NCBI GenBank assembly: GCA_013306675.1
Contig: JABLUY010000124.1
Location: forward strand, 1 to 64,000
Source: Thraustochytrium sp. TN22
Taxonomy: Eukaryota > Sar > Bigyra > Thraustochytrida > Thraustochytriidae
Direction of reading: 5' to 3'
Length of the DNA stretch: 64,000 nucleotides
The notes beneath the pieces were generated by a model. It saw only the letters and a program-made list of their open reading frames with translations. It ran no database searches and was not told the DNA's origin. The translations under genes were made by a program, and so were the position numbers. Positions 10,053 to 19,266 of the stretch are shown here, piece after piece (position 1 is the first letter of the stretch; each line of letters begins with the position of its first letter).

Positions 10053-11713
10053 TCACACGCTGAGATTCATGGAGGCAACCTTGGGTTGGGCTATAGACGA
10101 CGCACGCCAGCGTTGAAACTGGACGGCACCCGCCGCCGCGGCGCCGATAGCAGTGATTGCGGCGGCAGAAGCGCCAGCAGCAACGGCTGCGGTCTTGCTG
10201 GTGGTGGGGGTGTCCACGGAGTCTCCAGGGTTGCCCTGCACCGTCGGTGAGGGCGAGGTCCCCGTTGGGTCAGCCACCGTAGGAGCCGTGGTTGCGGTCT
10301 CTGCGGACTCGTCCGTGGGGGCTTCGGTCGAGACCAAGGCAGAGTCGACCGTGGGAGACTCAGTAGGGGCCTCCGTGGGCTGTTCCGTCGGCAAGTGCGT
10401 GGGAGACTCGGTAGGGAGCGCCGTCGGCAGCTCTGTCGGAAGGAGCGTGGGCGACACGGTCGGGCTCTCAGTAGGTTCGTTCGTTGGGAGCGCCGTCGGC
10501 AGCTCTGTCGGAAGGAGCGTGGGCGACACGGTCGGGCTCTCAGTAGGTTCGTTCGTTGGATCGCTTGTCGGGGACTCAGTCGGAATCCCTGTCGGCTCCG
10601 GAGTCGGAGCGCACGTGGGGAAATCCCAAGGGGTCTTAACGAAAGACATGTCCGGTTGGCAGCCCTCGAGGTCAGCATTGTCCAGGTAGAAGGTGTCCAA
10701 GTTCGTGAGGAGAGCCAGACTTCCCGGGAGGGAGGTGATGTCGTTGTCAGATATGTCCCTGCAACATTGAGAGTAGGATTAGCACGCGAGCTGCGGCGGT
10801 TCAATGGATCTCGGGACTGTCTGCATGCCCACACAACCTACAGGTAGGTTAGAGCTTCGAAGTTGCCGACGCAATCTGGCAACGCGGTTAGAGCATTCCA
10901 CCCTAAGTACCTGCGATTATGAAGCGAAATTTTTTCGTCATTATGACCTGGCCGAGCAAGGTCTTCGACGGAGAACCTACAGATACTCGAGACTCGTAAG
11001 GGGACAGAGCACCTCCAGCGACGTGTCTACTTTCCCAGAATAGATGTACCTACGCTTGGCGTCAGCTTCCAAAGAAACGCACAACACGACTTCTCGTGTA
11101 CACCTACAACGTATGAAGCAGGGACAGCGTGCTGAGCCCGCTCGGCAGTTCTGAGAATGTCTCGCCATTGAGATCGCTGCGGGGTCCGCAAGGCAGGACG
11201 TCAAAATGAGAGCCCGTGCCCTGATGCTTCGTTTCCTCGAACGTACAGATATTGAAGCTTTGTCAACGGTCCGGGAAAGTCCTCCGGCCAAGACGGCATT
11301 GCATCGACCCCGAGCACCCTGCTGAGGATGTCAGACTCTGCAGCTCGTTGAAACGCGCGACCCAGCGATCTACCTGAACTCACAGATTCGTCAGGTCGGT
11401 GAGGAGATACAGGGTCGTGGGGATGTCGAGGAGGGAGTTGTACTCGTAGTACCTGAATAGAAGAGTCACGTTAGACAGCTCTCGCACGCATGCTAATGGT
11501 ACAGTCCGGTACGCACAAGCTGCCTATGTTGGTGCCAAAATAAGCACAGTCAGGCACCTCACCCGCGCAAGAATGAATTGAGATGCTTGTCTTTCCACTG
11601 ATGTCGACACCATCATTATCATAGGTGCACCCCCCCTGCGACAAGGTGACCAGTTGCGAACCGAGCGCCGTGAGGAGCACAAGCAGACTCGCACCCATTC
11701 TGGCGGCCAGCAT
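10053..11713 (-). CDS. Secreted leucine-rich-repeat protein with PTxxPT stalk, seven exons
   Basis: Predicted join: 11713-11517, 11452-11384, 11318-11247, 11176-11108, 11049-10981, 10910-10842, 10758-10053, giving 416 residues. All six introns are 58-83 nt with GT-AG ends and lie in phase 2, splitting the Leu codon that closes each repeat. Exon 1 encodes a signal peptide (MGASLLVLLTALGSQL, with a possible earlier Met five codons upstream) and a short Cys-containing cap. Exons 2-6 each encode one LRR of 23-24 residues, for example YLGWNALTALPDCVGNFEAL. The last exon carries the sixth repeat (DISDNDITSLPGSLALLTNL), then about 110 residues of ESPTxxPT-type repeats, then an Ala/Ile-rich hydrophobic segment (AAITAIGAAAAGAVQF) that may anchor the protein. 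The role is probably extracellular binding or adhesion. The splice model is read by eye; the acceptor of exon 3 could shift by 3 nt. Confidence 0.85.
10414..10557. repeat. 72-bp direct tandem duplication in the PTxxPT stalk
   Basis: Two copies (10414-10485 and 10486-10557) are almost identical. Each encodes one block of the NEPTESPTVSPTLLPTELPT type on the minus strand. It is a recent in-frame expansion of the stalk of the LRR protein. Confidence 0.9.
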
Positions 11714-11937: not shown

Positions 11938-12024
11938 GGAGGTGGAGGGCCGCCGCATCGCCCTTGCAGGTGCACCGACAGTGCGTGCAGGCGTCGTGCC
12001 ATGGAGCTGAGTCCGATTACGTTA
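11938..12024 (+). repeat. Left terminal inverted repeat of the transposon
   Basis: It contains GGAGGTGG, CGATGC (as GCATCG), the 17-mer GTGCACCGACAGTGCGT at 11970, the 16-mer CCATGGAGCTGAGTCC at 11999, and ACGTTACGG at 12019. Each has a reverse-complement partner at the right end. The two long matches are 12 bp apart here and 184 bp apart on the right. Confidence 0.85.
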
Positions 12025-12278
12025 CGGAAACCGCCGGGCGCCTATCATTTATATGGCGCTGGCGCCGCGTGGCCGCGGAAGGGTAAGGTGCCCTCTGAAG
12101 TCTAGGGTTTCCCGTAGGAAGGTCCTATTGATATGAGTTTGTATGCAGGAGTCACAGGTCGGTACGAACATCAGGGCGGGCAGGAGGCCCAGGAGCAGCA
12201 TGTGCAGATCTTTGCCGCTGGGCGCACGTGAGCGCGCGCGCGCAGGCGGAGGGGAAGGGGGGGAGCGGGGGCGGGAAG

Positions 12279-15200
12279 ATGGGTGTCCGCTCCTTTGCGT
12301 CTACCGTGGGTGCCGGCCAGCGCCTAGTAGAACTCCCGACGCTCTGGAGTCCCCGTGTGCCGATTGACAAGGTGTCCATTGTCTTCGACTTTGGCGCCGC
12401 CTTCGCGTCTTGCAAGCGGCCAATCGCGGCCAGTGAGGCGTGGGCGTGCCCAAACGCCTACTCGCCGGCGACCGTCGAGCGCTTGCTGGAGATGGTCGCG
12501 GGTCTGAAGGCCTGTTGCGGTCACCTCTACCTCGTGATGGATGGCGCGAACCACCTTTGGAAGCCTAAGGACCACGAGGCCAAGCGGCGCGCAGCGTCGA
12601 CCCGCCTCGCGTTGGGACGTTGGGGAGCTGCGACGGCACTCCTGCGTCCAGACCGACGAGCTCTTCTCCTCCGCCTCGAAGGAGTTGTCCAAAAGATGCT
12701 GCTTGACGCGCGCGCGGCGATCAAGGACGACGACGGGTGTGACCTCATGGAGGCTGAAGACGAGGTTGAAGACGAGTTTGTGCAAGATCCGAGCGAGGCG
12801 AGGGACGCCGAGCGCGAGGCTGACGAGGATGACGACGAACTCGGCGAGGGCGAGGTTCCTCCATCGAGGGCACAAGTGCGCGCAGGTGCCGCGGGACAGA
12901 ATCAAAAGGCAATCAAGGTATTCAAGTCGGCCATCGCAGGCTATGTTGCTGCCGCAGGCGGGCTTTCTGTGCTCTCAAGTACCCTGCAGGAGTTCGGCAA
13001 GGGAGTTGCTGCAGCGCGTGACCGTGTGCCATTGTGGCGAGACGAGGAGTGGGAATGCCCTGGCAGTGTGGAAGGAGCTCGTCCGACCGGCGTGGAGGAG
13101 GATGATTTCTGGCTTGGCCTTGCCCTTGTTGCGCTCGACTCGAGGCCCGCTTCCTTAGCGCGTAAAATCTGGGCACACGACGGTGGCGCAGGAGGAGGAG
13201 AACGTGGCTCCGGGGCGAAAGAAGATGTGGAACTCCTTCTGGCGGTCATGCTAGGGGGTCTCATTCCGTCAATGAAACAACAGGCCATGCGTTGGAGGTC
13301 ACCCACGCTCGTGGAAGTATCTAGACGCATCCGCGAGCTGTACGAGGACGGCGACGTCGTTGTCCTGGGCGCACTCTTCGAGGCAGACCCTCAGGTGATC
13401 ATGCTGCGCGAGGTGCTGGCGCGTGAGGACCCTGAGGGCGAACATTGGGTCGTCGGCTTGGACTCGGACCTCTATATACTGAGCCCGACTAAAGACAAGG
13501 TTGTCCTGGGGTACCGCCACAGAGGCTCCAGCAGACCACCAGTAGGCTATGTGGTGAGTGACCACAATCTCGTTCAAGCTGGCCTACATGGGACGAGCGA
13601 CGAAGGATTCCGCCTTCTAGCGTCATTACTCGGCAACGATGTGGGAGGCCCGGCGTCGCTCGGTCGAGGCCAACGCGGGGGGGCGACTTCGGTCGAGGTG
13701 ATCAAGCAACTGGTGCGCAGTTTTGACGGACAGCGAGCAGCCACAGGCACCGCTGAGCGGCGCCGCATGCTCTTACAGATCCAGGCAGTGTGGATGCCGC
13801 TGCTCTCTACGCTTTCTCGAGAGCTCAAGTTCGAAAAAACAACGCTCACCGGTGAGGCGCTAGTTGACCGTCTCGCGCGCCCCATGCTCGTCTTCTCCGA
13901 CTATCCCGTGCTCGTGCCGATGTTGCGCGTGGACGGCGAGGAGGCTGCGCGATCGGATGATATGCGCACCGACAGCGATATGAAGGCATCCGTGCACAAG
14001 AGGCTAGGTTCCGGCGATTTCCAAGTGCAGCTCATGACTTTGGCCGACGCGGTCGGCCAGCGTCCGGACGCTGTTCGAGCCGCACATGTGCAGGCGGTCT
14101 GCGAGGAACTTGGCGTCGACGTTGCGCACGCAAGGGCGTCCTCGATCACCGAAGTTTTCTCCTACATGGCTAGTGCCGCTGATGCTTCCATGTTTCCGAA
14201 GCCGTCCAGCCCCGATCTCGTCTTCATGGCCAACAGGTGCATGGAAGTGCCGCTGGAGAGGCGCACTAAGAGCGACATCAAGGAGTTCTTCATGTGCCGC
14301 GGTGTCAACATACCGGAGAGGGTCTCGGTGCAGCAGGCGCGCACGGTGATGGAGAGATACCTGAAGTTGCACCCTGCAAGCGACACGCGCTTCCTCGTAG
14401 TTCCCTCCGCGATTGCGATTGACTCGTACACAGAAGTTCCGCACCAGTTCGCACCTTTGGCCCCGAAGGACTCCTCGGGTCTACCTGGCCTCTGGACCTT
14501 CATACATTCCAGCGGCCTTGCGCTTGGAGCGAGCGAGCTCGACGAGCACCTCCCTGACCTGCCAACAACGAAGGACCGAGGCTGGCGACTTTTAAAAGGC
14601 GGACACATCAAACTCGGCACCCTCGAGTTCTTCGCCCCTGAAAATGTGGGATGGCGCAAGCCCGCTGCTGCTCCGCCAGGCGCGCGCCAGGGCGGACGGC
14701 CCGCTGTGCTTCGCGTCCAGGTGCATCCAAGCATGAACAGCACCAGGCCGCCATACAACGTTATCCTTATGCTTGCGGAGATGCGCGCGCCCGTCGGTGC
14801 TCAAGAACCTGTGTCGCCTCCAACGTATCGCTGGACGATTATGCCGTATCCATTCTCGCGTTGCAGCTGCTGGTGCCAGGTGACGGCTTGTAGTCACAAG
14901 TATGCTGTTGCCCTTTGCATCGCGGTACTGCTGGATTGTCGGAGGGACTGGAAATTGACCGGCCTGGAAGCGCACGCGGCTGCCGGGGTGATCAAGCGCC
15001 GGTTCCCGCTGGACCAGGCTGCGCTGCGGAGCGGCCTCAACACTATCCAGCTTCACATTCGGTCAGAAAAGGAAGCAAAATCTACGCGCCAAAAAACGCC
15101 GAAACAGCCGAGTAGGGCGCGCAAGGCGCAGACCCCGCCCGTGCAGGAGCATGACGACATCGACAACACGGATCCCGACGCATTCATCATGCCTACAGCA

Positions 15201-16694
15201 GGAGAATTGGAGGCTGGCCTACAGCCTGCCGACACGAGACAGGTTGTGAAGGAAGCAAAAGTCCAGGTCAGGCACGACGGCGCGTGGGCGATGGCGAGAA
15301 TCAGGGAATTCATCTCTCTTCACGGCAAGGACAACAGCCTAATGTCCGCCACATCGCAACCTAGGCGCGTACAGGAGGTCGAGGCCGAAATGGCAGGGCC
15401 ATTTGCATGGTCCCGCGACATGTTCGAGCTGCAGCGGCTGGTGCTCGTCGAGATGGAACACACCCTCATTCCATGGCTTGGGACTCAAGCTGGCCGGCAA
15501 CACAACCGCGGAGTCGCCTCCTCGCTTGGCTTTCCCACAAAAGAGCACCTTTACAAGTTCTTCTCTTGCGCATTCGCCAGTCACACGCTCCCCGTCTGGC
15601 GTGAAGTTCTCAAGAATGGCGTACGAGGCGACGAGGCAGTCCTCTCGCCGCAGGATTTGAGGCCCGTCATGAGGGAACTCGAAGACTGGACCAACTATGG
15701 AAATCGGGAGAGCTTCATCATCGAGACGCTGATCAAGCTTCGTAGCGGCGAGTCCGCGGATGCTATGGCGGCGAAGTCTAAATTTACGACGGCCCGTCCC
15801 GTGCTGATCCGCATTCGGCGCGGGATGGCCGTCTTCGGCGTGCTCGGCCAGTTGTTGACCTCCTTCGAGTACCTGCCATTGTGCCTCAAGGAAGTCAGCC
15901 CAGACTCGTTCGTCGAGCTGCTCCCTGACGTGCTTTGCGTCGGGGACTGCACAGACTTTCACTTTGGGAGCCCTAACGGCGGCTACAACGGGCCATTTTA
16001 TTCGTCAAAGATCGACAGCCCCGCCTTGCGGCTCTTGATAATATGCCTACCAAATGGCTTCGTGCATACCCAGTCGCCAGTCGTGCTCGGTCGCGTTGAA
16101 GAGCCCACCCTCATCACCGCTGTAGGGAAGCTACGAATGATCAAAGCGCATCCTTCGACGCGACTCCTCTACGACAAGGGAGCCGCGAACGTCGGCATCA
16201 CACTGCCGAACATGAACAATGTGGCCGCGCCGGCCCACAGATACACTCATGGAGGCAAGAAGAGCCACTTCTTTGAGGCCGAGGTCCAGCAGAATCGGAC
16301 AAACGCTTCGCTTCGAGGCTTTGTCGAGCACCGGTTTGGCGACTTGAAAGACTTTGCGTTCCTCAGAAACACAATCCCAGTGGGGCAGAAACAGTGGGTC
16401 GAGCCTGCCGCCTACTTCATCATGGGAATGACGAACTTCATTGGTCGGCCAGCGTGCAGGCGCCGCGACAACATCCAGGTGGGGCGTCGCACACGAGCGC
16501 CGGTCGATGCCAAGGACGAATTTGACCGACACGATGTCAACTGCGCGGGCCTGTACCTTGCGCGGACACGCTACACTTCCAAGCTGCAGTATTGGCTGAG
16601 CGTTGTTGACAATGAGAAGCGGCAGCCGCACGAGCGAAAAGCCGCCGTTCCACCTTTCCTGCACCATCTGATACTCGAAGCATCGGAAGCTTGA
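12279..16694 (+). CDS. Transposase with XPG/FEN1-like nuclease, SWIM-like zinc finger and DDE domain
   Basis: A 1,471-residue protein from a single frame. The N-terminus resembles XPG-N: IVFDFGAAF (~36) followed by LYLVMDGANHLWKPKDHEAK (~84), the VFDGxxxxxK pattern. XPG-I is seen as GALFEADPQV (~363) and VVGLDSDLYIL (~391), giving the usual acidic residues. A helix-hairpin-like LLASLLGNDVGGPASLGRG (~446) matches the LLGSDYxxGIPGVG element of FEN1-type nucleases. A Cys/His motif CSCWCQVTACSH (~861) fits SWIM (CxCxnCxH). The C-terminal DDE shows VGDCTDFHF (D, ~1223), YSSK, LLYDKGAANVG (D, ~1298) and RGFVEHRFGDLK (E, ~1350), the spacing and R-x-VE pattern of DDE_Tnp_4-like transposases. The long span between nuclease and SWIM is unassigned. 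Start is the first ATG; the frame opens at a GTG 51 nt upstream. All likely catalytic residues appear present. Confidence 0.85.
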   Translation: MGVRSFASTVGAGQRLVELPTLWSPRVPIDKVSIVFDFGAAFASCKRPIAASEAWACPNAYSPATVERLLEMVAGLKACCGHLYLVMDGANHLWKPKDHEAKRRAASTRLALGRWGAATALLRPDRRALLLRLEGVVQKMLLDARAAIKDDDGCDLMEAEDEVEDEFVQDPSEARDAEREADEDDDELGEGEVPPSRAQVRAGAAGQNQKAIKVFKSAIAGYVAAAGGLSVLSSTLQEFGKGVAAARDRVPLWRDEEWECPGSVEGARPTGVEEDDFWLGLALVALDSRPASLARKIWAHDGGAGGGERGSGAKEDVELLLAVMLGGLIPSMKQQAMRWRSPTLVEVSRRIRELYEDGDVVVLGALFEADPQVIMLREVLAREDPEGEHWVVGLDSDLYILSPTKDKVVLGYRHRGSSRPPVGYVVSDHNLVQAGLHGTSDEGFRLLASLLGNDVGGPASLGRGQRGGATSVEVIKQLVRSFDGQRAATGTAERRRMLLQIQAVWMPLLSTLSRELKFEKTTLTGEALVDRLARPMLVFSDYPVLVPMLRVDGEEAARSDDMRTDSDMKASVHKRLGSGDFQVQLMTLADAVGQRPDAVRAAHVQAVCEELGVDVAHARASSITEVFSYMASAADASMFPKPSSPDLVFMANRCMEVPLERRTKSDIKEFFMCRGVNIPERVSVQQARTVMERYLKLHPASDTRFLVVPSAIAIDSYTEVPHQFAPLAPKDSSGLPGLWTFIHSSGLALGASELDEHLPDLPTTKDRGWRLLKGGHIKLGTLEFFAPENVGWRKPAAAPPGARQGGRPAVLRVQVHPSMNSTRPPYNVILMLAEMRAPVGAQEPVSPPTYRWTIMPYPFSRCSCWCQVTACSHKYAVALCIAVLLDCRRDWKLTGLEAHAAAGVIKRRFPLDQAALRSGLNTIQLHIRSEKEAKSTRQKTPKQPSRARKAQTPPVQEHDDIDNTDPDAFIMPTAGELEAGLQPADTRQVVKEAKVQVRHDGAWAMARIREFISLHGKDNSLMSATSQPRRVQEVEAEMAGPFAWSRDMFELQRLVLVEMEHTLIPWLGTQAGRQHNRGVASSLGFPTKEHLYKFFSCAFASHTLPVWREVLKNGVRGDEAVLSPQDLRPVMRELEDWTNYGNRESFIIETLIKLRSGESADAMAAKSKFTTARPVLIRIRRGMAVFGVLGQLLTSFEYLPLCLKEVSPDSFVELLPDVLCVGDCTDFHFGSPNGGYNGPFYSSKIDSPALRLLIICLPNGFVHTQSPVVLGRVEEPTLITAVGKLRMIKAHPSTRLLYDKGAANVGITLPNMNNVAAPAHRYTHGGKKSHFFEAEVQQNRTNASLRGFVEHRFGDLKDFAFLRNTIPVGQKQWVEPAAYFIMGMTNFIGRPACRRRDNIQVGRRTRAPVDAKDEFDRHDVNCAGLYLARTRYTSKLQYWLSVVDNEKRQPHERKAAVPPFLHHLILEASEA

Positions 16695-16713
16695 GCAATT
16701 ATACATTCCCTGC

Positions 16714-18087
16714 CTACCAATCCACCATTTTGTCCTCATCGCGAAGCTCTTGACGCTTCAACACCTCTGCTTTGTTCGCAAGGTGCACAGGACAATTATC
16801 TTCCCTCTCCTTGATCTCAGAGAGGTCACGCATGAAGCGGGCAACGTAGCTCTCCTTGGCAGTCTCGCGAGCTGCCTCTTCGCGAGCAACAGAAGCCTCT
16901 AGAGCAGCTTTCGTAGTGAGCAGTTGTTCCACAAGCTCCTCCACAGCCTTGTGGCTCTTGTCGAGCTCCCCCTGCAAACTTTGGACGGTGGACTCCTGCA
17001 CTTGGCTCGCTGAGATATATGAAATGAGCTGCGTACGTGTCCGCTTCTCTGCCCTTGCGCTCACTACGAGCTTATCTAAGGCGCATTGGTACTGGGCTTC
17101 GGCTGCCTGCCGTCTTGCGCGCTCCTGCTCCACCTGCGCGCGTGAGACTTTCTCCCGACGCCGTGAGTCGTGCTGGGCTTTACGAGCGACCTCGGCAGAT
17201 GCTGCGTTTGCCGCAACCTCTGCTCGCACCTTTTGCTCGAGTCGGGCAGCCGTGTCGCTCAACACGAGTAGCTCTCGTGCGATCGCTGTGGTGGCTGCAT
17301 CCCCGGTGATAGCACGTGCCCGAACAAGCACACGTGCGGCTCGATCATCGGCAGTGACGAGATTCGTCCTCGGCGAGACGGGACGTGCCGCGAACGTAAC
17401 GTCTGGCACAATCAATGCTGCTCGTTGGAGCTGGCCATTACGCGATCCGTTCTTAGGCACCATGACAATATCGCTCGGGTCCGTCGTTGGGGTCGCGTCC
17501 TTGTAAATTCGCGTCCGCCGGAATGAGCTCTTGCTGCCCGTGCGTACCTTCATGGTGAACGAGTCTGGTTGAAAGTGTGTGTAGGTGATCTTGCGCAACT
17601 TTTGTGGCGCCATCTGGAGGTCGGCCTCCCTGATGCCGAGGTGGGCGAGCCAACGCTTGCGCCGATCAACGCCATACATGAGGCCCGGCGGCGGAATGGC
17701 GATGCGGCAACCTTGCATGTTAGGATCGTTGTCATGAAGCTCGACTTCGCGGCAGCGTCCGCCAGGAAACCGCGAGCGCACCACCTCGCAGAGGCATGGT
17801 TCCGGCAAGAGGCCCGGCATCTCCGACGCGAAAGGAAGGACGCGCCGAGGAGAAAAAGCACGGGTAGCACCGTCTGAGCGAGAGGATGATGACGCGGATG
17901 GCGGTCTCGGGTTGCCTACACGCTCTGAGGGTGATGCGAGTGATCGTCCTGGTTCTGTAGTCGTCGACGATGCGGACGATGGCCTCTCAGCGCCCGCATG
18001 CGACCGTGGCACTTTCAAGGGCGTTCGTCGCGATGCGGAGCCAGAGAACGACAATGGCGACGCCCCCGAAGCGTTGGAGGGCACCAT
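16714..18087 (-). CDS. Transposon accessory ORF: Ser/Arg-rich N-terminus and long C-terminal coiled coil
   Basis: A 457-residue protein of unknown function. The first ~110 residues are Ser/Arg/Pro-rich and look disordered. A middle block (PEPCLCEVVRSRFPGGRCRE, then IPPPGLMYGVDRRKRWLAHL) is more compact and may be a folded domain with paired Cys. From about residue 270 to 440 it is a continuous Ala/Glu/Arg/Gln coiled coil. Its stop codon is 19 bp from the stop of the transposase gene in convergent orientation, and both genes lie between the same inverted repeats, so it is inferred to belong to the element. The frame is open back to 18249 without another ATG, so a spliced 5' exon cannot be ruled out. 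No nuclease or transposase motif is visible. It could be a DNA-binding or multimerising partner of the transposase. Confidence 0.65.
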   Translation of the reverse strand: MVPSNASGASPLSFSGSASRRTPLKVPRSHAGAERPSSASSTTTEPGRSLASPSERVGNPRPPSASSSSRSDGATRAFSPRRVLPFASEMPGLLPEPCLCEVVRSRFPGGRCREVELHDNDPNMQGCRIAIPPPGLMYGVDRRKRWLAHLGIREADLQMAPQKLRKITYTHFQPDSFTMKVRTGSKSSFRRTRIYKDATPTTDPSDIVMVPKNGSRNGQLQRAALIVPDVTFAARPVSPRTNLVTADDRAARVLVRARAITGDAATTAIARELLVLSDTAARLEQKVRAEVAANAASAEVARKAQHDSRRREKVSRAQVEQERARRQAAEAQYQCALDKLVVSARAEKRTRTQLISYISASQVQESTVQSLQGELDKSHKAVEELVEQLLTTKAALEASVAREEAARETAKESYVARFMRDLSEIKEREDNCPVHLANKAEVLKRQELRDEDKMVDW

Positions 18088-18249
18088 TTCGCTGATTGAA
18101 GGCCGTTCAGAACGCACTTCGGCCGGGCGTGACCTGTAGCTCGCTCCAGAGAAGCGCTTGAGGGTGCAGACTCTCAGGGGCGGTTGAGAGGGTGCCAAAG
18201 GAGCTAGGAATGACGTAATCCGGCCCTCGGCTTCGAGCGGCGTGAGCAC

Positions 18250-18998
18250 GCGAGCTTGATACCAATTTTGATTTGCCCGTATTTGACAATGATGACAGTC
18301 CTCACCAGGGGGTCAACGACCGCAAAGTAAGGTCGGATCACTCCTCCCGGATGCCTTGAATGACAAATGACCCTGCTACGGGTGTCCTGCCTCGAATACA
18401 GACCGGTACACGCTCGCAAAGACGACCCAATATCCAAATCTGGAGCGCGAGATTCCACGCTTACAAGCTGGCCGCACCTCAAATAAAGGTATCGGGGAGG
18501 TGCGCGCCACGCCTGCTTTGCGAGACAGACCTCAAACGCTTCCTAGCTGGCATGCAGAGTGAGCTAATCGTGGTCAAAGTCGTGGCTAGAGGCGAGGTTC
18601 AACAACTTTGACTCCTTGTTTCTCCTTGACGACAACCTCGACGGGCACGAAATGCACACGTCGGAGCGAGCACGGTTGGGTGGCTATGTTGCTGCAAGGG
18701 CCAGACTGCACGCGCGATTTTGACCACGGAAGGGCGTGTCGAAGTTGGGTCTCCGCGACGCGGAGGCCGCGACCTTCACCTCCGGCTGCCTCGCCGCAGA
18801 GTCCACGCCCGGCCCCGCGAACGCGCAGGGGGCTTCCCACCCTCCCCACCGACAGTCCCACGCGCCTGCCTCGCCCGCCCCCGCCCGCCCGCCCGCGCGC
18901 GCGCGCGACAACGTGGCTCGGCACCAAGCTGACACGAACCTGTGATTCACGCATTTCCGAAGGCCGCCTTCGCCGGGTGAAACCCCCGGAGTCCACCT
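18250..18998. other. Right internal untranslated part of the transposon
   Basis: About 750 bp between the coiled-coil ORF and the right inverted repeat. It presumably holds the promoter of the minus-strand gene. Short open frames here show no recognisable domain. A GCGCGC run lies near 18896-18907. Confidence 0.5.
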
Positions 18999-19266
18999 TA
19001 ACGTGTTGACTGGACTCAGCTCCATGGGACAGAAAGGTTTGTTCGCCTCTGGCGGCACGTGCACACGTGCCCGGCGCCGCGCCAGCCGCCGCCACCGGTA
19101 CTAGAAGGGACAGCCGTGGCCCGTGACGCTGCCAAAGGCGGTGCAAAGGACTTTTACGCTGAGGGGCCCGCACGCGCCCGCACTTTTACGCTGTCGTGCT
19201 GTGTTGCCCGGACGCACTGTCGGTGCACGCTGCTGCGCGATGCCCGGCATGCCGTGCGCCACCTCC
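18999..19266 (-). repeat. Right terminal inverted repeat of the transposon, expanded relative to the left
   Basis: It has TTAACGT, GGACTCAGCTCCATGG at 19012, ACGCACTGTCGGTGCAC at 19212, CGATGC and CCACCTCC, in mirror order to the left end. The interval between the two long matches is 184 bp against 12 bp on the left. That extra segment holds two copies of CTTTTACGCTG (19151 and 19183); a third lies at 19299 and a reverse partial copy (CAGCGTAAA) at 19359, so the true end may be up to ~100 bp further out. Confidence 0.75.

Follow-up and report, generated by a model that had tools for sequence, protein, structure and literature searches.

The closest described counterparts of the transposon reported here, which lies in a 64,000-nucleotide stretch of Thraustochytrium sp. 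TN22 (assembly GCA_013306675.1, contig JABLUY010000124.1, positions 1 to 64,000; this whole stretch is called the window), are the ISL2EU elements of the PHIS transposons. In the available part of PMC4482050, ISL2EU elements are given AT target-site duplications (TSDs), a target A-AT-T and terminal inverted repeats (TIRs) starting with GG, they are listed from animals only, and most autonomous candidates consist of one open reading frame (ORF) with DDE, helix-turn-helix (HTH) and THAP parts plus a YqaJ ORF. The same part calls the role of the second ORF in PHIS transposons unknown, and it ascribes to PIF/Harbinger elements a TWA TSD and a Myb/SANT second ORF (PMC4482050). As far as the accessible portions of two further papers go, AcademX encodes a nuclease and has 3-4 bp duplications (PMC10045372), and Kolobok lineages pair one transposase superfamily with differing nucleases, i.e., DEDDh, PD-D/ExK and His-Me (PMC9587614, with 0 occurrences of "XPG" in its main text).

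The window element, which together with its relatives is termed family A, is probably a two-gene cut-and-paste transposon from the ISL2EU side of PHIS, in which a FEN1/EXO1-type 5′ nuclease replaces YqaJ and is joined via a SWIM-like finger to an HTH-DDE transposase, with a THAP-like and a coiled-coil part placed in the convergent gene 2 (Table 1). A sequence-only reading of the locus had assigned to one mobile-element protein an XPG nuclease, a SWIM-like finger and a DDE of ISL2EU/Harbinger-like type, and this combination is retained, the nuclease as a likely assignment. The same reading spoke of a copy that mixes these parts; the window protein is no unique chimera, for one relative in its family has moved recently, and in a second family of the genome, family B, modules of the same kinds occur unfused.

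The element and its recently mobile relative

The window protein was used to scan the whole genome (G000), whose 453 contigs total 37.9 Mb and include the window as contig C27. Matches of 37–39% identity were found on C277, C404 and C136, and C413 and C150 hold fragments. On C277 and C404 lie 6,675-bp units, 100% identical, which are bounded by ATGGACCCTGCGCCG, inverted, at both sides and whose sequences diverge immediately outside on both sides. Since two identical copies end exactly at their TIRs in different flanks, this 39%-identical relative has transposed recently. No ends could be located for the C136 copy, and this copy looks dead, because the first catalytic Asp of its DDE reads Gly. 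The window element is larger than the gene span from which the sequence-only reading had started. Among 2000 Markov shuffles, 8 produced an inverted 14-mer shared between its flanking regions, and 0 produced one that begins with ATGGA.

Table 1. Features of the family A element in the window
Feature	Positions	Strand	Basis
Whole family A element, 7,025 bp	12001..19025		14-bp inverted termini; layout as in the 6,675-bp relative
Left TIR ATGGAGCTGAGTCC, AT at 12001-12002	12001..12014	+	exact inverse of 19012-19025
Gene 1: XPG-like nuclease, SWIM-like finger, DDE transposase	12279..16694	+	frame, family alignment
XPG-N-like region, aa 1-110 (D37, D88)	12279..12608	+	conservation, FEN1 register, predicted fold; no Pfam XPG match
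XPG-I-like region and LLGND motif, aa 350-470 (E368, D370, D395, D397, D454)	13326..13688	+	conservation, alignment
SWIM-like CxCx6CxH (C862, C864, C871, H873)	14862..14897	+	identical in 3/3; no Pfam match
Putative HTH-like stretch ahead of the DDE core	15717..15848	+	aligns with the Pfam-detected HTH_Tnp_4 of family B; no Pfam match in family A
DDE_Tnp_4 catalytic core (D1223, D1299, E1350)	15945..16436	+	Pfam E 7.6e-10, alignment, tree
Gene 2, convergent, up to 511 aa: CxC...HFxP (THAP-like) and long charged, probably coiled-coil part	16714..18249	-	ORF; homologue in the 6,675-bp relative
Right TIR, AT at 19024-19025	19012..19025	-	inverse of left TIR

AT stands at both ends in all three family A insertions (window, C277, C404) and in the three family B insertions that are readable at both ends (C88, C398, C425), and the flanks of the window, C277 and C404 copies hold no longer duplication. 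No empty site was found with six joined flanks, 12 of the 13 matches being the flanks themselves. Since AT is self-complementary and no empty site was found, it may represent either a 2-bp duplication or a part of the TIR. In element orientation, A precedes AT in one of three family A insertions and T follows it in one of three; the corresponding counts for family B are 2/3 and 4/4. GGA comes right after AT in both family A units, and family B begins with AGA. Contig C442 was rejected as an empty site, for its match begins 4 bases left of the junction and spans the right flank only; the window's right flank from 19022 on matches this contig at 93%, beginning almost at the insertion point. When the end regions were inspected (window 12001-12110 and 18915-19025, and the ends of the C277 unit), a subterminal TTAAGG motif was seen repeated near the right end in the window and near both ends of the C277 unit, which might be a protein-binding site. 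Outside the TIRs, a 38-bp imperfect inverted repeat, 76% complementary, lies at 11955-11992 and 19206-19243.

Gene 2 has a homologue in the matching position of the C277 unit (28% identity, E 9.5e-17). Its protein is THAP-like as judged by motif alone, without a Pfam match: the CxC and HFxP line up with family B and three database proteins, with C, C and H invariant, and a comparison of gene 2 of family A with the N-terminus of family B and relatives by hhalign gave E 0.033, not significant. The putative coiled-coil part was judged by eye. Relatives of gene 2 occur at C22:48497-50971, C141:16280, C55:165070, C79:70450, C142:2965 and C122:80857, on contigs with no DDE_Tnp_4 match, and on C22 four successive matches lie inside one 1676-aa frame, as though the domain were repeated. 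On C28 (13064-14893, L041), gene 2 and the right-hand region are found in pieces with 76-88% DNA identity to window 16852-18918 and with no match to the XPG-DDE gene, which looks like the remnant of a closer relative. C425:67767-67912 (L026) retains an isolated left end of the window type, about 88% identical to window 12008-12131.

The N-terminal part of gene 1 and its relation to XPG nucleases

The window frame 12228-16694 (+) is open for 1488 codons when counted from the first GTG. Since Met-Gly-Val stands at 12279 in all three aligned family A members, this Met was taken as the start, which gives a gene 1 product of 1471 aa (12279-16694, +) with no internal stop. The motifs VMDGAN, FEADPQV and GLDSDLYIL, already pointed out in the sequence-only reading, are all found in this protein, and so is LLGNDVGG. 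The residues D37, D88, E368, D370, D395, D397 and D454 are identical in the three aligned family A proteins (window, C404, C136), at 38-40% overall identity. At the level of sequence the proposed XPG order is kept, but the proposed spacing is not: about 280 residues, largely poorly conserved, lie between the XPG-N-like and the XPG-I-like parts, far more than in FEN1. The finger stood in a different form from the CxCx4CxH first described, in that C866 of the window protein is Q in both full-length relatives and the conserved arrangement, identical in 3/3 family A members, is C862-x-C864-x6-C871-x-H873 (CxCx6CxH). We take this finger to be of the SWIM kind from the look of the motif, and Pfam gives it no match. 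When the protein is aligned with ISL2EU-type transposases, the D, D, E motifs proposed earlier correspond to D1223, D1299 and E1350, and Pfam on the whole protein returned DDE_Tnp_4 alone (aa 1223-1386, E 7.6e-10).

Genome searches with XPG_I and DDE_Tnp_4 gave adjoining matches on C88, C177, C398, C425 and C267. Family B comprises four units of about 5.38 kb (C88, C177, C398, C425), 99.5-100% identical, whose flanks differ where readable; ATAGATGAGATGCGC is found inverted at both ends of the C88, C398 and C425 units, and the left end of the C177 unit reads N. According to Pfam, its transposase frame of 756 aa contains HTH_Tnp_4 (3.5e-12) and DDE_Tnp_4 (1.3e-33) with no THAP match, and the opposite strand encodes an XPG protein (XPG_N 2.8e-15, XPG_I 3.6e-7). 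The frame after XPG carries CECPAARADSGCVH, a SWIM-like CxCx8CxH that has no Pfam match; the SWIM regions of families A and B, when compared by hhalign, gave E 0.16, not significant. The modules that the window protein unites thus occupy separate frames in family B. Two further copies, on C73 and C267, have altered catalytic or finger residues and are apparently decayed. The protein closest to family B comes from Hondaea fermentalgiana (67% over 63% of the query). XPG_I matches lie at 10 places of the genome, six of which were read by eye as family B or its remnants and the others as host genes, FEN1, XPG and EXO1 on C149, C158 and C49 and an MKT1-like gene on C123. Neither family has a YqaJ; the single YqaJ match of the genome (C78:69001-70000, L061) is on a contig with no DDE_Tnp_4 match and is apparently unlinked to a transposase of that type. 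A FEN1 scan of genome contigs confirmed 0 of 142 pattern matches, and a PDB search by sequence gave no match.

The N-terminal part of the family A protein is likely an XPG/FEN1-type nuclease, as suggested by its sequence and by a structure prediction. The assignment rests on the conserved catalytic acids, on the top rows of the structural match list, which are occupied by FEN1/EXO1-type nucleases, and on purifying selection, the XPG part having the lowest ratio of non-synonymous to synonymous substitution (dN/dS) among seven regions compared. It is further backed by family B, a second mobile family of the same genome with an XPG gene that is certain by Pfam. In an unguided alignment, the family A nuclease kept the FEN1 register for four of the seven acids in two of three modes. 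Several results weigh against the assignment. Pfam finds no XPG match in the window protein, and XPG_I appears only in the C136 relative, below threshold (E 0.12). The structure check proposed with the sequence-only reading gave the expected heads of the list from a model of low confidence. By hhalign, the family A nuclease against a profile of family B with host FEN1 and EXO1 gave E 0.021, not significant, and against B/FEN1 profiles in local mode E 0.097 and 0.026, likewise not significant, the global mode being worthless. Moreover, since the C404 and C136 proteins are 87% identical to each other, the three aligned members represent only two independent lineages; the conservation of the acids counts for two lineages and not for three, and our overall confidence is lowered on that ground. 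Such weak statistics would be expected if the N-terminal part were no XPG nuclease and the motif order a coincidence, yet we regard this as improbable: the seven acids are kept at 38-40% overall identity, FEN1-type chains head the structural list, a certain XPG stands beside the DDE of family B, and a motif-order pattern, composed after family A had been inspected, matched 43 of 1000 ORFs, each of which, by its label or on checking, belongs to A, B or the FEN1 type. An XPG fold that is present as a non-catalytic module for DNA binding or dimerisation, or that works for the host, or for the element in a capacity other than transposition, is given equally little credit, for all seven acidic positions are intact and no other of the seven regions has so low a dN/dS.

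Class of the transposase and of the element

The DDE tree comprised 19 rows: three from family A, two from family B, one further in-genome ISL2EU-type sequence, six of the seven database proteins (P0004, nearly a copy of P0003, was omitted) and seven Harbinger-type sequences, the weak DDE_Tnp_4 matches on C396 and C434 not being used. Rows were typed by domain content and by reading of the sequences, and they include no named Repbase sequence and no Academ row; among the database proteins, P0005 (Dysidea avara) has HTH_Tnp_4, THAP and DDE_Tnp_4 in Pfam. Family A and the nine ISL2EU-type rows are separated from the seven in-genome Harbinger-type rows with 100/100 support, so the DDE core of family A groups with ISL2EU-type and not with Harbinger-type rows. 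The DDE parts of A and B also match each other (hhalign, E 7.6e-5), and the upstream TG..F and HTH-like stretches of family A align with ISL2EU-type proteins. Of the check by DDE_Tnp_4 profile and tree that had been suggested for this protein, the domain match and the ISL2EU side came out; the exact placement did not, because support for a position beside or within the ISL2EU-type rows is only 41/65. The branch of family A measures 2.49 changes per site, and the program issued a long-branch warning.

This long branch and low support would suit a PHIS lineage or superfamily that stands apart from both ISL2EU and Harbinger and gained its XPG and SWIM modules separately from family B. The lack of a significant match between the XPG part of A and the profile of family B, FEN1 and EXO1 points the same way, as does the failure of protein searches with the full gene 1 protein, and again with the three-member alignment, to find a relative among the 8000 best candidates each, an absence that is weak, because the word filter limits sensitivity. 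We nevertheless hold such an origin to be unlikely, since modules of these kinds are also present in family B of this genome, AT-flanked ends are common to A and B, and the stretches upstream of the DDE core can be aligned with ISL2EU-type proteins. The divergent Academ element with its own XPG nuclease that the sequence-only reading had considered is less credible still. The nuclease of AcademX is presumably an XPG nuclease, and this would make it the closest known association of XPG with a transposon; to our knowledge, no Academ element has it fused with a SWIM-like finger. The available part of the AcademX report, from which the encoded nuclease is known, gives TSDs of 3-4 bp (PMC10045372), and the flanks of family A permit 2 bp (AT) or none; the element ends would fit ISL2EU and not AcademX. 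The DDE class probably differs too, by the DDE_Tnp_4 match and the 100/100 grouping with ISL2EU-type rows in a tree that holds no Academ sequence. Family A shares with PIF/Harbinger the DDE_Tnp_4 membership, yet neither a TWA duplication in the flanks of its copies nor a Harbinger-type DDE in the 19-row tree was found.

The placement on the ISL2EU side agrees with the described elements (PMC4482050, PMC9179366, both in part) in the DDE_Tnp_4-type core grouping with THAP/HTH/DDE proteins, in the AT-flanked termini, in the TIR of family A that starts with GG after AT, and in the two-gene layout including an accessory nuclease. It differs in that family A has an XPG-like nuclease, where most ISL2EU elements in the part of PMC4482050 available have YqaJ, in that nuclease, SWIM-like finger and DDE form a single polypeptide, in that the THAP-like part is encoded by the other gene, in the flanking target, which in family A does not appear to be A-AT-T, and in the host, here a protist. 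From Kolobok the element differs in transposase superfamily, but the exchange of accessory nucleases within one superfamily is a common trait, as far as the accessible portion of PMC9587614 describes it. Nuclease exchange and transposon-borne nucleases are thus already known. Among the PMC matches listed, judged by title and opening of the abstract, none described an ISL2EU- or Harbinger-like element that carries an XPG nuclease, and none an XPG fused with SWIM and DDE (Repbase and subscription literature lay outside this scope); as far as these matches go, both the presence of XPG in an element from the ISL2EU side and the three-module fusion would be new.

Proposed role of the nuclease

YqaJ is a nuclease of the lambda-exonuclease type, and YqaJ and XPG nucleases both act from 5′ ends. 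From this shared polarity, 5′-end processing would be the common task behind an exchange of YqaJ for XPG. In the mechanism proposed, the THAP-like gene 2 protein would bind the element ends and bridge them, and the DDE core would cut at AT and attach the 3′ ends to the target, staggered by 2 bp. The XPG part may then remove short 5′ flaps at the joints or trim the 5′ ends at the empty donor site, after which repair could finish.

More tentatively, and with rather less confidence than in the main reading of the element, we propose a distinct PHIS lineage in which one enzyme cuts, joins and trims its own 5′ flaps or donor ends and depends less on host repair. XPG would have taken the place of YqaJ in at least two mobile families of this genome, encoded by its own gene in one and fused in the other, so that the accessory nuclease would be exchangeable and the required activity would be 5′-end processing. 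A nuclease apparently fused to the transposase in the seat of YqaJ suggests that such elements require some means of trimming DNA ends, and a different nuclease in the seat of the second ORF offers a concrete, testable answer for the PHIS second ORF, i.e., 5′-end processing during transposition. The exchange of accessory nucleases, known from Kolobok in the part of PMC9587614 at hand, would be extended to the ISL2EU side, and the single-polypeptide nuclease-transposase is offered for biochemistry.

In scans of viral contigs, 0 of 129 pattern matches were confirmed with family A and 0 of 133 with an ISL2EU-type alignment. Elsewhere in the window, 10053-10700 (-) holds a frame with repeated PTESPT/PTELPT units, which perhaps encodes a host surface protein.
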